Virus record (IMG/VR): IMGVR_UViG_3300046734_000171
Coordinates: 1-28,517 of that record
Direction: 5' to 3' (one strand)
DNA: 28,517 bases
From: a virus
This document shows positions 14,828 to 26,061 of this stretch, piece after piece. The position numbers and the translations under genes are program-made. Every line of letters begins with the position of its first letter. Position 1 is the stretch's first letter. The notes under the pieces are model-generated. The model worked only from the letters and a program-made list of their open reading frames with translations. It made no database searches and had not been told where the DNA came from.

Positions 14828-14879
14828 TAGTTAACTCATCATCTAGGTCATCTAGTATTACTTCATCTTTTATGTACAT
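14790..14879 (-). CDS. Possible small acidic peptide overlapping HNH gene (29 aa)
   Basis: An ATG at 14879 lies in the last codons of the cytosine methyltransferase gene and opens a 29-codon frame ending at 14790, inside the HNH gene. The product is acidic (MYIKDEVILDDLDDELTNEQ). It would cover the 35-base gap between the two genes and overlap both. GGAAAAC before it is a mediocre SD. It may be a coupling peptide or chance. Confidence 0.25.
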   Translation of the reverse strand: MYIKDEVILDDLDDELTNEQIPKTLSNVS

Positions 14880-15492
14880 TTATGTTTTCCAATATCTCTT
14901 TGCATAATTCATAAGGTACTTTACTTCTTTCATAATTACCTTTTAATCCTTGTGTTCCAGTTTTTGATCCACGTGGTGCAGCTTCGTGGCACGGCATACC
15001 GTTCTTACACATTGGTCTTGGTGTCCAGTTTAAATTATGCCATAAATCCGTAGGTTTCATACGATTGTCGCCATATTGACAATAGGTAACTGTATCACGG
15101 TTAAGGTACTCTACTGCACCCATTTTACGCATTAAGCCACGTGGATTTTCAATTATAAAATACTTTGGTTGTAATATATTTATTAGCCATATTGTTTGTT
15201 CAAGTATTAGTAAACCGTCTTGTGCTTTTTCTGTTTTAGGTTCTCTATTACCATTTTCATCAGGTGCGTTCCAATGATAGCCACAACTTGCAATACTAAA
15301 TGTTGTACACGGTGGACTTGCCCAAATGATATCTGGCCAAAATGGTATGCTGTCTATATCAAAATCTAATATATCTACAACGTGATCTACTTGACCATAC
15401 TGTTTTATATCAGTAGTAAATGTTTCATAACCATATTCTTTTGCTACGTTACTAAAACTGCAACTACCTGCAAATAATTCTAATACTTTCAT
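14863..15492 (-). CDS. DNA (cytosine-5) methyltransferase
   Basis: This 209-aa enzyme starts MKVLELFAGSCSFSNVAKEY, the AdoMet-binding motif I with F-A-G. The catalytic motif IV is WASPPCTTFS, with the nucleophile at Cys62, and motif VI is FIIENPRG, the usual EN-V/P. At 209 aa it is short compared with typical bacterial C5 enzymes, and the target-recognition part is small, as is usual in phage stand-alone methyltransferases. The ATG overlaps the stop of the upstream adenine methyltransferase (ATGA), so the two are coupled. The likely job is to hide phage DNA from host restriction. The specificity cannot be read from sequence. Confidence 0.88.
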   Translation of the reverse strand: MKVLELFAGSCSFSNVAKEYGYETFTTDIKQYGQVDHVVDILDFDIDSIPFWPDIIWASPPCTTFSIASCGYHWNAPDENGNREPKTEKAQDGLLILEQTIWLINILQPKYFIIENPRGLMRKMGAVEYLNRDTVTYCQYGDNRMKPTDLWHNLNWTPRPMCKNGMPCHEAAPRGSKTGTQGLKGNYERSKVPYELCKEILENINVHKR

Positions 15493-15983
15493 AATTCTAC
15501 GTTTAATCCTAGTTGTGCTTGTTTTATAACTTCTATTGCTTTATTTCCACAACCAATTAATAAGCTACCTGTACTACCTTGTTTTGCTTGTACGTTACCT
15601 TTGTAAAACGCTAATCTACCTTTTACAAAACATAATATATCTGCTTTGGTTGCATAATTATGAAACCAACGTGTATCAGTTCTTGCAAATACTAAAGCTA
15701 TGCCGTTGCCGTGTTGTATTAATTTTTCTAGCCACAAACCAGTATCTTTACCATAAGGTGGATTACACCAAACAAATCCATACCAATCTTGTTTTAAACC
15801 GTCTAATTCTTCGTGGTAATGATTTTCTGCTGGTATCCACGGAACACCACCTTTAGGTGCTGCAACATCTAAATCAAATGTTGTATTTAAACTTTTAAAT
15901 AATTCTGGTGGTGTGTACCATTCATTTGATTGAACTACGCCACCGGGATTTTCGTACCAAGTACCATTTTGTTTTTGATCCAT
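15489..15983 (-). CDS. Phage Dam-type DNA N6-adenine methyltransferase
   Basis: This 164-aa protein has EWYTPPELFKSL near the start, DLDVAAPKG as the AdoMet pocket and NPPYGKD (NPPY at 74-77) as the catalytic motif IV. This is the plan of the phage Dam family (PF05869-type). Then come LVFARTDTRWFH and ILCFVKGRLAFY. The length agrees with phage Dam proteins of about 160-180 aa. A strong AAGGAG box precedes the ATG. It sits upstream of a C5 enzyme with a 4-base overlap, and a third methyltransferase lies at 17995-18672. It probably protects against GATC-type or other restriction. Confidence 0.9.
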   Translation of the reverse strand: MDQKQNGTWYENPGGVVQSNEWYTPPELFKSLNTTFDLDVAAPKGGVPWIPAENHYHEELDGLKQDWYGFVWCNPPYGKDTGLWLEKLIQHGNGIALVFARTDTRWFHNYATKADILCFVKGRLAFYKGNVQAKQGSTGSLLIGCGNKAIEVIKQAQLGLNVEL

Positions 15984-16005: not shown

Positions 16006-16653
16006 CTATACTTGTTTTTTTTGTTTTTCTTGCCATATTTCTAAATTCTTTCTTGTACACGCTTTACACCAACTTGTTTTACCACCTATGCCTTGTGGTC
16101 GTCTGCTAAACTCATCAGCTATCTTACGTTCCCAACACTTTGTACAACGCTTAGTTACTAATTGTCCGTGACTATTAAACTCTGGCATTGACTTGCTTGG
16201 CTTTTCACGATCTAGCAGCTTATCAGCTTGTTTATTGTTTTGTATCTTTATATGACAACTAACGCAAATATGTGATTTACCACCCCAATTTTCATTATCA
16301 TTAGGATAACCTTTAGTCTTTCTGTTGCACCTTAGACAACGCTTACGTACTAATTCCCCGTGATAACTAAATTCTGCGTCAATAATATCTAATGTTGTGT
16401 AAGTTTCTACTAACGTTTTATCTAGATCAGCTGGTGGTTTAGCTTTAAATCTACGTCTTACACGCTCTGGTACGGCATATACACCGTATTCATAATCATT
16501 GTTTAGTGCGTCTTGCAAACATTCTACGTTTACTGGACATTCACGGCAAACTATATGTGTTTCCCAGTACTGTTTATCTGTGCTTTCCTCTGTACCGGGG
16601 AAGAACAGATTTGTTGGTAAGTTGTTGCAATTAGCCCTGTTATGCCATTCCAT
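16006..16653 (-). CDS. WhiB-family Fe-S regulator fused to two duplicated zinc ribbons
   Basis: Residues 1-70 are a WhiB-like domain: W3, C9, FFP at 17-19, and C36-x2-C39-x5-C45 for the 4Fe-4S cluster. After them come G57-V-Y (the usual G-[VI]-W turn is G-V-Y here) and a basic R/K stretch at 63-70. WhiB proteins act with sigma factor in actinobacteria and actinophages. Unusually, 130 more residues carry two C-x2-C ... C-x2-C ribbons, at C106/C109/C130/C133 and C170/C173/C196/C199. Both are introduced by the same phrase, E-F-[S/N]-x-H-G-x-L-V-x-K-R-C, so the ribbon was duplicated. The second resembles the zinc-ribbon N-terminus of endonuclease-VII-like phage proteins. No good SD precedes the ATG; initiation may be leaderless. 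Confidence 0.88.
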   Translation of the reverse strand: MEWHNRANCNNLPTNLFFPGTEESTDKQYWETHIVCRECPVNVECLQDALNNDYEYGVYAVPERVRRRFKAKPPADLDKTLVETYTTLDIIDAEFSYHGELVRKRCLRCNRKTKGYPNDNENWGGKSHICVSCHIKIQNNKQADKLLDREKPSKSMPEFNSHGQLVTKRCTKCWERKIADEFSRRPQGIGGKTSWCKACTRKNLEIWQEKQKKQV

Positions 16654-17527: not shown

Positions 17528-18005
17528 TTTGCCACTTTGTTATCCACTTGTCTGTATCTTCCCAACACCATTGACTACTACTAAATACTTTCCAGTAAGG
17601 GTTTCGGCTATGTATATCTTCTACCAATATTGACGCAACCTTTATGTTATATTTTGGCACAAATTGTGCGTAATTGTTGCCAATAGGATAATCCCAATGT
17701 GGTACGTCATAGTTTTGTTTAACCCAACCATACGATCTAGGTATTATTTGAAATAATCCACTATCATCATCTTCATAACGATATGCGTTAGCTTTACCAC
17801 GACTTTCGCACCACATAACTTTTGTAGCTGTTTCAATGTTCTCTAGATCAAAATGTTCCACTAACAGCTGTGCATATTGCATACAACTATCTGGTACATA
17901 GTTTTCACAATCTTTTATATTTGTGAAGTCATCAACAGTAGGTGTAATACCAATAGCAAAATTATTAAGTATTAACGCCCAAGCTAATATGCATTTAGTT
18001 ATCAT
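17517..18005 (-). CDS. Secreted lysozyme-like (SLT-fold) peptidoglycan hydrolase
   Basis: Taken from the ATG at 18005 (overlapping the methyltransferase stop by 11 bases), the 162-aa product opens MITKCILAWALILNNFAIGI, a good signal peptide with Lys then a hydrophobic run. The mature part has WCESRGKANAY with the catalytic-type Glu, then SGLFQIIPRSYGW, the GLMQ-type motif of soluble transglycosylases. Later WKVFSSSQWCWED ends the domain. A longer frame from 18056 would add 17 residues, without a better SD. A secreted lytic enzyme in the early half, away from the amidase/holin pair, could act at DNA entry or as a second lysin. Confidence 0.72.
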   Translation of the reverse strand: MITKCILAWALILNNFAIGITPTVDDFTNIKDCENYVPDSCMQYAQLLVEHFDLENIETATKVMWCESRGKANAYRYEDDDSGLFQIIPRSYGWVKQNYDVPHWDYPIGNNYAQFVPKYNIKVASILVEDIHSRNPYWKVFSSSQWCWEDTDKWITKWQNEL

Positions 18006-18672
18006 ACAATTTGCTAACTTCATCAAATACTTGCTTTGATAATTCAAAACCAACATAATCTCGGTTTAACTTTTGTGCAGCAAAACCTGTTGTACTAGAA
18101 CCCTCAAATGGATCAAGTATTAAATCTTTTTCATTACTAAATATATCAATACATTTTAAAGGTAATTCAATTGGATATGGTTTTTGTGCTGATGTTTTAC
18201 TACTAGATACAGAAGTTTCAATAAAGTTATGTTCATAATTTATTTTTTTTGGATAATCTAATTTTGGAACTTTTGCAAATATTTCAATAGTTTCAACAGA
18301 ATTAGTTAATCTTCCACGTAATGGTATTGGATTTGTTTTATGCCAATATATTTTGTCAATGTTATGCCAATGTGTACGACGTTCAATTTGCCTTATTAGT
18401 TCGCCTACTCTATTAACTTTACCCTCTGAATAACTAAAACCAATATTCATTGCAATAAACCCTGTATCTTTAACTTTAGGTTTTAATAAATCAAATAATT
18501 CTAAAATATCAAATAAAGGTTCGCCAACTGGTACTGTATTATGAAATCCACTACCACGTTGATAACGTTTTTCACTATTAAAATATGGTGGACTTGTCAT
18601 AACTAATTGTATTGATTTATCTTCTAAATTTTTAATTAGTTCTAAACAATCCCCGTTGTATCTATTTATCAT
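17995..18672 (-). CDS. Beta-class DNA N4/N6 methyltransferase
   Basis: This 225-aa enzyme has the catalytic SPPY motif (27-30) early and the AdoMet motif DPFEGSSTTGFAA near the C-terminus, the motif order IV-...-I typical of beta-class N4-cytosine or N6-adenine enzymes. It opens MINRYNGDCLELIKNLEDKS, as in the D-C-x-E-x-L-x-x-L start of the family. The middle (IDKIYWHKTNPIPLRGRL) is the usual W-x-K-x-N-P-x-P. Its ATG overlaps the initiator stop, and its end overlaps the lysozyme-like gene. With the two others it gives the phage three methyltransferases of different types, without a visible restriction partner. Confidence 0.9.
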   Translation of the reverse strand: MINRYNGDCLELIKNLEDKSIQLVMTSPPYFNSEKRYQRGSGFHNTVPVGEPLFDILELFDLLKPKVKDTGFIAMNIGFSYSEGKVNRVGELIRQIERRTHWHNIDKIYWHKTNPIPLRGRLTNSVETIEIFAKVPKLDYPKKINYEHNFIETSVSSSKTSAQKPYPIELPLKCIDIFSNEKDLILDPFEGSSTTGFAAQKLNRDYVGFELSKQVFDEVSKLYDN

Positions 18673-23845: not shown

Positions 23846-24028
23846 TTAAGATTTTCTAAAATTTATAGTTAAAAACCATAAAGCAAAACTAATTAAGATC
23901 ATAATACCAACAACATCTTTAGCTGATCCTGTTAAAAGAAACCAGCTTAAAAAAAACCCAAGTGCTGTAAATATCTGCCCTGCTGCTTCTTTAAGTAGTA
24001 CTTTTATGCCGTTATATATCTTTTTCAT
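23846..24028 (-). CDS. Two-helix small membrane protein (60 aa)
   Basis: This 60-aa protein shares its first base with the end of the 677-aa stalk gene (stop and start touch). It has a basic amphipathic start (MKKIYNGIKVLLKEAAGQIF), then two hydrophobic helices (ALGFFLSWFLLTGSA; DVVGIMILISFALWFLTIN) and a basic end. It looks like a small inner-membrane or holin-like protein. Direct coupling to the secreted stalk protein suggests a joint function at the envelope, which is inference. No family recognised. Confidence 0.65.
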   Translation of the reverse strand: MKKIYNGIKVLLKEAAGQIFTALGFFLSWFLLTGSAKDVVGIMILISFALWFLTINFRKS

Positions 24029-26061
24029 TAAAATCTTCTTCTTATAGGTGTTGCAATGATCTGACCAACAATAATTACCGGGACAACTGTCTTTTTAGCA
24101 TTGTCTTTGCTTGATTGCGTCATATCACTACCAATATCTGATATTACTATATCGCTTAGGTCAATATCGGTAAATTGTCCTATTGGATCTGCAAAAAATT
24201 GTTCTACCTGTACTTCAACAATTACATTAGATATTGAGTAATCTTCTACGTCTGCGTTTTCTGTTGCACGATCTACGTATTCTTGTACGGCAATATTTAT
24301 GTTTTCATCTTTAGCTGATTGTTCTGCAATTATCTGAACATCATTAGTTTCAGTTACACCAAGCACTTCTGCTACAACTTGTTTTTCTTCTTCATTAAGT
24401 TCGGCAATAGTTTCTACATTAGTAACTTCATTAACTACGGCCTGTACAACTTGTTTTGTTTGTTCATCTGCTACTGCTAAATTCTGTACGCTAACTTGTG
24501 CTACTTGCTCTACTACTTCAACTAACTCGTCTGTTTCAAGTTCCTGTACGGCTTCAACTATTGCAGCTTTAACTTCTTCTTCATATACTTCTTTTTCTTG
24601 ATCTGTTAAAGTTTCTAACTCGTCATCAGTTTTTATTTCAACTATTTCTTCTACGTTAACGACTTCTTCTATAACCTCTTGTGCTACTTCAACTTGTTCT
24701 ATTACTTCTTCTTCTGTAAGTTCTGGTAGTATCTCTTGTTCTCTTTCCTCACTAGGTAACGTGTCAAGGTCATCTTTTGGTAGATCGTTTTCTTCATCAG
24801 CAAAATCTTCTTTAATTGGTGCAAGTGTTGTGGTAGTTGTCGTAGTAGGTACAACAATATCTTCAATAACAATATCAATTTCAATAACTTCTTCTTCAAT
24901 TTCATAATCCTTAAAATCTATGGTTTCTTCTAATAACTGTATTGTATCAATTAATTCTTTTACTTCTACTAACTCATCTTCGCTTAATTCCTCTACATCA
25001 ACATCTTTTAATATTGATTGTTCTAGTTCTTTTTGTATTTCGGCTTCTGCTTCTGCTTCTAATCGTGCTAGTTCCTCTTGTTCAGCTTTTATACGTGCCT
25101 GTTCAGCTTCTAGTTCTGCTTGTACTCTAGCTTCTTCTTCTAAGCGTAAACGTTCCTGTTCTTCCTCATATAAACGTTGTGCTTCTAATTCAGCTGCTAT
25201 GCGTTCTTCCTCTTTACGTTGACGTTCTGCTTCTTCCTCTTGTCTAATACGCTCTTGTTCAGCTTCATATTCAGCTTGTCTTTTTGCTTCCTCACGTGCT
25301 AACCATTCTTGGTATTCTTTATCTTCCCGGTCTTTTCGTTCTTGATCTGTTTCATATATCCCGGTTTCAGCTTGATTGTTGTTACGTTGTACAGTTAACG
25401 GATCAAGCGTTGTAGTTGTTGTTGTACTGGTCGTAGTTGTGCTTGTAGTGGTAGTAGGTGGCACGGTTGTAGTCGTAGTTGTAGTTGTTGTGGGTGGAAC
25501 AGTTGTAGTTGTGGTCGTAGTGCTAGATGTAGTTGTAGTGCTTGTCGTAGTAGTTGTAGGTGTTGTTCCAAATGTCCAATAAATATCATCAACAATTACA
25601 TAATCATCATATTGAATTGCAACAGAAGTTATATACTTACCTGTAACGGTTTTACTGACAACTTCATACATAGTTGATACATCTGCGTTAGATTGTGCTG
25701 AATAGTTAACTGTTTCTGTTGTACTATCGCTAAATGTCCAAGTAACCGGGTATGCGTCGTTTACACAACCAGATAAAAAACCTGCTGTTGTTACATTATC
25801 TTCTGGGAACGTAATAGTAATTGTTTGGTCATCATTATTTTGCATATTGTAATGAACTGCTTGTGATGATGAACCACAATCGCCACTATGTATATCTAAT
25901 CTATTCCAACTTGATCCACCATAATCAAATGTAATATCTGTTGTATTTTGCCCGGTGTCGCTTATTCTTTCATACGTAGTTGTTTCATCTGCTAACACGG
26001 GTGGTGTGATTAAAAATACAACAATAAGAATACGTATAAAAGTATTTAGTTTGTGTAACAC
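24028..26061 (-). CDS. Large secreted Thr-rich/coiled-coil stalk-like protein (677 aa)
   Basis: Likely GTG start at 26061 (no clear SD). A signal peptide spans residues about 1-24 (hydrophobic ILIVVFLITPPVLADE, cleavage after VLA). Then comes a beta-rich domain with two cysteines to about residue 165. After it lie a Thr/Pro/Ser tract (about 166-222), a highly charged coiled-coil of Glu/Arg/Gln (about 235-350), and a second Thr tract (about 400-413). A long acidic Val/Glu region follows, ending in a hydrophobic segment with basic tail (VVPVIIVGQIIATPIRRRF). It may span the membrane with a C-terminal anchor and expose a long stalk. Thr/Pro linkers like these are common in secreted proteins of marine actinobacteria. 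Phage virion spike or surface exclusion protein are both possible. Confidence 0.65.
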   Translation of the reverse strand: MLHKLNTFIRILIVVFLITPPVLADETTTYERISDTGQNTTDITFDYGGSSWNRLDIHSGDCGSSSQAVHYNMQNNDDQTITITFPEDNVTTAGFLSGCVNDAYPVTWTFSDSTTETVNYSAQSNADVSTMYEVVSKTVTGKYITSVAIQYDDYVIVDDIYWTFGTTPTTTTTSTTTTSSTTTTTTTVPPTTTTTTTTTVPPTTTTSTTTTSTTTTTTLDPLTVQRNNNQAETGIYETDQERKDREDKEYQEWLAREEAKRQAEYEAEQERIRQEEEAERQRKEEERIAAELEAQRLYEEEQERLRLEEEARVQAELEAEQARIKAEQEELARLEAEAEAEIQKELEQSILKDVDVEELSEDELVEVKELIDTIQLLEETIDFKDYEIEEEVIEIDIVIEDIVVPTTTTTTTLAPIKEDFADEENDLPKDDLDTLPSEEREQEILPELTEEEVIEQVEVAQEVIEEVVNVEEIVEIKTDDELETLTDQEKEVYEEEVKAAIVEAVQELETDELVEVVEQVAQVSVQNLAVADEQTKQVVQAVVNEVTNVETIAELNEEEKQVVAEVLGVTETNDVQIIAEQSAKDENINIAVQEYVDRATENADVEDYSISNVIVEVQVEQFFADPIGQFTDIDLSDIVISDIGSDMTQSSKDNAKKTVVPVIIVGQIIATPIRRRF
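25395..25565. repeat. Degenerate threonine-codon tract
   Basis: The stretch is a degenerate tandem of GTAGTTGTN-type triplets on the plus strand (ACN Thr codons on the minus strand), encoding the first Thr/Pro/Ser linker of the 677-aa protein. It is interrupted by GGTGG (Pro-Pro). It has no separate function visible, but such tracts expand and contract easily. A shorter tract lies at about 24820-24862. Confidence 0.7.

Follow-up and report, generated by a model that had tools for sequence, protein, structure and literature searches.

A phage WhiB domain fused to a duplicated Cys4 zinc module in a candidate transcription regulator of Candidatus Actinomarina phages

Our analysis of a 28.5-kb virus record of ~32–38% GC (hereafter the window, i.e. 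the whole stretch of DNA analysed) identifies a 215-aa protein in which a WhiB (Wbl) domain is followed by two related Cys4 modules. We put the probability at about 0.5 that this protein serves a small tailed phage of Candidatus Actinomarina as a Wbl regulator, one that would dock on region 4 of the host sigma factor and bind DNA through its zinc tail. The gene lies on the minus strand, with its ATG at 16653 and its stop codon ending at 16006, and is laid out as follows:

16006..16653, minus strand: WhiB/double Cys4-module fusion protein, 215 aa (ORF, Pfam, cysteine spacing and 30 further full-length relatives)
16456..16647, minus strand: WhiB (Wbl) domain, residues 3–66, with C9, C36, C39 and C45 and W3, F17 and F18 (PF02467, E 3.1e-13; WhiB1 6ono, E 3.7e-8; Foldseek)
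16468..16485, minus strand: degenerate WhiB beta-turn GVYAVP, residues 57–62 (26-member alignment; pairwise alignment to WhiB1; motif from PMC10245118)
16381..16440, minus strand: linker, residues 72–91, variable and mostly helical (AlphaFold2 helix 77–91; 0 invariant columns in 73–91)
16252..16374, minus strand: Cys4 module 1, residues 94–134, with C106, C109, C130 and C133 (hhalign and shuffles against module 2; AlphaFold2 model)
16039..16182, minus strand: Cys4 module 2, residues 158–205, with C170, C173, C196 and C199, the most conserved part of the protein (hhalign, PHROG, 26/50 columns invariant)

The first-pass annotation had described, without giving the strand, a WhiB cysteine set followed by a duplicated pair of Cys4 modules, each led by the same phrase, and this description holds: the WhiB cysteines are residues 9, 36, 39 and 45, the tail cysteines are residues 106, 109, 130 and 133 and residues 170, 173, 196 and 199, and the phrase reads EFSYHGELVRKRC at residues 94–106 and EFNSHGQLVTKRC at residues 158–170. 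It had also allowed that the N-terminal part might fail to align with WhiB families. In Pfam that part matches PF02467 with 50.5 bits against a cut-off of 23.6, and the relatives L016, L043 and L075 pass the same cut-off; the solved WhiB1 structure matches the domain as well, and structure searches with the AlphaFold2 model of the protein rank WhiB1, WhiB and WhiB3 highest. All four cluster cysteines, together with a CPV motif, are invariant in 26/26 aligned members, at WhiB-domain identities down to 44%.

The beta-turn of this WhiB domain is degenerate. The G[I/V]W[G/A]G turn is described as common to all Wbl proteins (PMC10245118); in every one of the 26 members it is replaced by G[V/L/I][Y/F][A/S/C/G][V/L/M]P, which is one residue shorter, with the Trp changed to Tyr or Phe and one Gly deleted. 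The Trp of the turn varies in other phage WhiBs too, being Phe in Holliday gp70 and Azrael100 gp85, and we therefore describe the protein as carrying a divergent Wbl domain rather than as a typical Wbl protein. Substitution of Glu for Gly58, Gly61 or Gly62 of WhiB1 impairs DNA binding and leaves cluster formation intact (PMC3390391); glycines 61 and 62 are lost in the window family. The residues through which Wbl proteins contact sigma have fared differently from one position to another: W3, F17 and F18 are present in the window protein and kept in nearly all members of its near clade, the position of WhiB1 W60 is Tyr or Phe in all 26 members, and in the distant L043–L051 clade the counterpart of F18 is Ile. 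W3 is needed for binding of sigma-A4 by WhiB1, and Ala at the counterparts of WhiB1 F17, F18 or W60 abolishes sigma-A4 binding by WhiB3 (PMC10245118).

The two tail modules are true duplicates and not a chance likeness, since their BLOSUM62 local score of 78 lies above all 2000 shuffles (maximum 54, rising to 61 when the cysteines stay in place) and their profiles match each other (hhalign 96.6%, E 5e-10). Profile comparison shows module 2 to be homologous to the zinc modules found at the N-terminus of phage HNH proteins of the endonuclease VII type (hhalign 98.6%, E 5.5e-16): a PHROG endonuclease VII profile matches it with E 1.5e-8, a scan with its own profile retrieved only WhiB fusions and endonuclease VII proteins, and the string GGKTSWCK.C is shared with such proteins, e.g. 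IMG/VR L053 and L056. No nuclease family matched the 215-aa protein in Pfam; L053, which carries a module of the module 2 type and served as a control, matched PF02945 with E 2.6e-27. Module 1 alone has almost no outside relatives in PHROG and matches the endonuclease VII module profile weakly; with outside relatives nearly absent, the best view of it is that it diverged from a copy of module 2. The tail has a basic composition (pI 9.7 in the window protein, 9.6–10.2 overall), with a net charge of ~+5 on the module 1 segment and ~+9 on the module 2 segment.

The earlier label of zinc ribbons is right in that there are two Cys4 modules and less apt in their form, as the models, which are of moderate confidence (two AlphaFold2 models, mean pLDDT 64 and 60), suggest a treble-clef-like arrangement rather than a plain ribbon. 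In each modelled module the repeated phrase forms a beta hairpin, after which come a knuckle and a helix that starts at the second CxxC or close to it; module 1 in the AlphaFold2 model runs strand–knuckle–strand and then into a helix from residue 131. Fold matches of the tail, the best of them at Z 3.7 to endonuclease Hpy99I and a Rab effector domain, are too weak for use. Two PHROG matches touch the same modules. PHROG 5767 (sigma factor) is weakly matched by module 2 at profile positions 355–392, its C-terminal end (E 0.02), a hint that zinc modules of this type may also occur in fusions with other transcription proteins. Both tail modules are spanned by PHROG 5558 (‘Lar-like restriction alleviation’; E 5e-7); its name probably reflects the zinc modules only, but a double-module protein that stands alone may exist.

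An enlarged WhiB has been reported before in this phage group, in the phage of AG-919-G14, as a fusion to an ADP-ribosyltransferase-like domain (Lopez-Perez et al. 2020, mSystems, PMC7771536), so that the enlargement itself is not the unreported feature it had been taken for in the first-pass annotation. The two proteins represent the same gene, being 74% identical over 212 aa with the same architecture in collinear genomes, and what was read there as ADP-ribosyltransferase-like we read as two Cys4 zinc modules. A toxin-like tail has the published statement in its favour, as well as the presence of ADP-ribosyltransferase-type genes in other freshwater phages (PMC6802176), but we regard it as almost certainly mistaken and reject it. 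Searches of Pfam and NCBIfam with thresholds set loosely matched no ADP-ribosyltransferase family to the tail, nor, in Pfam, to the AG-919-G14 protein itself; PF03496 gave no match at E ≤ 1 in the window or the AG-919-G14 assembly (a control search gave matches in 5/14 genomes, all of them short of the cut-off); no PDB chain matched the tail profile; and the linker and the two Cys4 modules account for the 143 residues that follow the WhiB domain. These results give grounds to correct the published annotation from a toxin fusion to a zinc-module fusion.

The proposed search of metagenomic phages for the same fusion was fruitful: IMG/VR scans recovered it at full length in 29 contigs, at identities down to 54%, and one further copy lies on a phage contig of 29,719 bases in AG-919-G14, a single-cell assembly of Candidatus Actinomarina. 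The WhiB domain joined to a duplicated zinc module is thus a phage architecture kept in relatives, and the 29 contigs and the single-cell genome rule out an assembly or sequencing fusion, an artefact that had been considered for the tail. Across the 26 aligned members 12/12 cysteines are invariant, and mean pairwise identity is 65% for the WhiB domain, 70% for module 1 and 78% for module 2. Near-clade pN/pS is 0.25 for the WhiB domain, 0.20 for module 1 and 0.12 for module 2; the value of 0.13 for the tail as a whole, against 0.25 for the WhiB domain, indicates stronger purifying selection on the tail. Recent recombination of the tail is not favoured, as the tail and the WhiB domain differ little in synonymous divergence in the near clade (0.49 and 0.53, respectively); over the whole set synonymous divergence is saturated.

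All annotated-looking genes of the window lie on the minus strand, in the order tail, head, portal, large and small terminase, HNH, two methyltransferase-like genes and the WhiB fusion, followed by small genes, a transglycosylase-like gene, a methyltransferase, a replication-initiation protein, holin, endolysin and exonuclease. The fusion gene sits between the replication and terminase genes, just before the packaging module, in an order shared with the AG-919-G14 phage, which does not support the early region first proposed; the AG-919-G14 contig is collinear with the window over 34/39 window ORFs tested. Nor did a late promoter near 14.3 kb find support: in the 13.4–18.1 kb interval promoter-like matches were rarer than in shuffles (16 versus a mean of 23), with no excess near the fusion gene, and no recognisable binding site or promoter for the protein was found there. 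Among 20 window proteins scanned against PHROGs, the fusion is the sole confident match to a transcription regulator; one weak Mrh-like match was also seen (E 0.002). Actinomarinales host genomes carry 1–3 WhiBs, and the AG-919-G14 assembly encodes two ordinary ones, in frames of 101 and 125 aa. Outside the phage contig the fusion was absent from 42 Actinomarinales genomes, and on this sample we reject a cellular origin. We take the fusion to be a phage trait here, because the WhiBs of the host order otherwise stay at or below 141 aa and lack a zinc tail. The candidate primary sigma factor of AG-919-G14 keeps the RHP contact sequence (QLEKLALCRLRHPS; RLRHPS, the H516-containing sequence of region 4).

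We propose the following mechanism for the protein as a Wbl regulator: its N-terminal domain probably holds a predicted [4Fe-4S] cluster and would dock on region 4 of the host primary sigma factor; its basic tail, presumably zinc-loaded, probably binds DNA beside the promoter, standing in for the glycine turn and the basic tail or AT-hook of cellular WhiBs; and the protein would thereby turn the host polymerase towards the genes of the phage, or silence those of the host, at a point between replication and packaging. The tethering idea of the first-pass annotation, in which the tail would link the sigma-binding module to DNA or RNA, stays a reasonable hypothesis. From the retention of W3, F17 and F18 and of the host RLRHPS sequence, and from the loss of the turn glycines, we infer that sigma docking is kept, perhaps in altered form, and that DNA binding has been taken over by the zinc tail. 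Docking could instead be weakened or changed, because the W60 position is Tyr or Phe and, in the distant L043–L051 clade, the F18 counterpart is Ile. This reading is supported by the PF02467 match, the four invariant cysteines and the kept sigma-contact aromatics; by the host RHP sequence and the position of the gene before the packaging module; by the duplication, basic charge, purifying selection and nuclease-free endonuclease VII homology of the tail; by its being the sole confident regulator match among the window proteins scanned; and by the precedent of phage TM4, whose WhiB is cited in PMC11797047 as acting on the promoter of host whiB2. Against it stand the degenerate turn, the W60 change, the moderate confidence of the structure models and the lack of a recognisable binding site or promoter in the interval searched; zinc modules can, moreover, bind RNA or protein, which counts against a DNA-binding tail.

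Some of these observations lend themselves to other explanations. The degenerate turn and the change of W60 to Tyr or Phe would also suit a host-shutoff factor that has lost sigma docking and acts on DNA alone, competing at host promoters such as those of host whiB genes. The 1–3 WhiBs of each host genome offer possible targets, and part of the literature points the same way, the TM4 WhiB repressing host whiB2 and overproduced phage WhiBs slowing M. smegmatis (PMC11797047). However, the retention of W3, F17 and F18 in the near clade points to continuing selection on the sigma-contact surface, and the Glu substitutions at Gly61 and Gly62 of WhiB1 struck DNA binding rather than the cluster (PMC3390391), a loss for which the zinc tail could compensate; we consider host shutoff on DNA alone a possible but clearly less probable account than that of a sigma-docking regulator.

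The endonuclease VII-type character of module 2, together with the HNH and terminase genes just downstream in both the window phage and the AG-919-G14 phage, raises the further idea that the tail tethers WhiB not to promoters but to a complex that serves packaging, recombination or an HNH nuclease. Gene neighbourhood alone is weak evidence, however, and the 215-aa protein has no nuclease domain in Pfam. We also know of no role for a WhiB domain in packaging, and we find such an accessory function improbable. A WhiB domain that has shed its cluster and persists as a structural scaffold only would account for the degenerate turn, but it is hard to reconcile with four cluster cysteines and a CPV motif that are invariant in all 26 members while identity falls to 44%, or with a WhiB-domain pN/pS of 0.25–0.37, and we judge it very unlikely.

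Compared to cellular WhiB1, WhiB3 and WhiB7, with which it shares the WhiB domain, the four cysteines and the aromatic residues W3, F17 and F18, the window protein has zinc modules in place of a short basic tail or AT-hook, and a degenerate turn in place of an intact G[I/V]W[G/A]G. The TM4 WhiB (gp49) is likewise a phage-encoded Wbl regulator, and one with experimental function: as cited in PMC11797047, it represses host whiB2 by binding at the promoter of that gene. No zinc tail is reported for it, whereas the window protein has one. Overproduction of phage WhiBs slows growth of M. smegmatis (PMC11797047). The endonuclease VII-type HNH phage proteins (PHROG 1035 and 2633) share the N-terminal Cys4 module but carry after it a nuclease domain that the window protein lacks. 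A similar layout is seen in the Cheoctovirus (cluster F1) mycobacteriophages, in which a WhiB domain is likewise followed by one to three Cys4 modules: one in Donkeykong gp61, Jamie19 gp43 and MooMoo gp58; two in Gandalph gp60 and DotProduct gp52, a tail form present in about 276 cultured phage records; and three in the 215-aa DotProduct gp55 (L101:2443-3090), near gp52, the second WhiB of that phage. The WhiB of Pacc40 was labelled ‘WhiB/HNH endonuclease’ by its depositors, and in a Foldseek search of viral models the WhiB proteins of DotProduct and DeadP come out on top. The Cheoctovirus modules (CxxCGxxF...R.x(Y/F)CSxxC) look, by eye only, unrelated to the endonuclease VII-type module, and their WhiB domains keep G[I/V][W/F]GG, in contrast to the degenerate turn of the window protein.

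The initial claim of a new architecture therefore survives in part: the endonuclease VII-type tail is unlike the Cheoctovirus modules on this visual comparison, but cultured mycobacteriophages commonly carry a WhiB with one to three Cys4 modules. The size range of 80–140 aa given at first for WhiB proteins likewise fails for phages, Streptomyces phage proteins Microdon gp42 and Kromp gp52 reaching 248 aa and DotProduct gp55 215 aa. In the open-access literature searched, a WhiB joined to a zinc ribbon or finger in phages was not described. We conclude that the window protein is a real fusion, that it is conserved, that the origin of its tail is identified, and that it represents a new variant among phage Wbl proteins rather than a new kind.

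Candidatus Actinomarina cells are among the smallest and most abundant in the sea, and to our knowledge almost nothing is known of how their phages take over transcription; the WhiB–zinc fusion provides a concrete candidate. The joining of WhiB to tandem zinc modules is a repeated pattern, seen in cultured as well as uncultured actinophages, and the combination of sigma docking with zinc targeting is directly testable, because WhiB–zinc genes occur in hundreds of culturable mycobacteriophages. We regard the reassigned toxin annotation, the degenerate turn and the recurrent WhiB–zinc fusions of actinophages as the most useful outcomes of the analysis. As a tentative extension, which we think rather unlikely as a whole, a marine actinophage lineage may have exchanged the WhiB turn and basic tail for a duplicated zinc module from an endonuclease VII-type nuclease, giving a sigma-docking factor with a new domain for promoter targeting that looks programmable, and WhiB–zinc fusions may have been gained repeatedly in actinophages, with unrelated modules, as a general strategy by which phages redirect host polymerase.

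Several other features of the two genomes deserve mention. Three methyltransferase-like genes (14863–15983 and 17995–18672, minus strand) have no match in the AG-919-G14 phage contig and look like variable cargo, possibly directed against restriction; open frames opposite the methyltransferase region, e.g. 15536–15856 on the plus strand, are likely spurious. At 24028–26061 (minus strand) the window encodes a 677-aa protein with Thr-rich runs, long acidic charged stretches and an apparent signal peptide, for which no PHROG match was found. Terminal repeats were not seen in the AG-919-G14 phage (PMC7771536). Both ends of its contig (G001:C11:1-1014 and 28779-29717; L091 and L092) fall inside an apparent single gene, the counterpart of this Thr-rich protein, an arrangement that points to a near-complete genome of circular or circularly permuted form.
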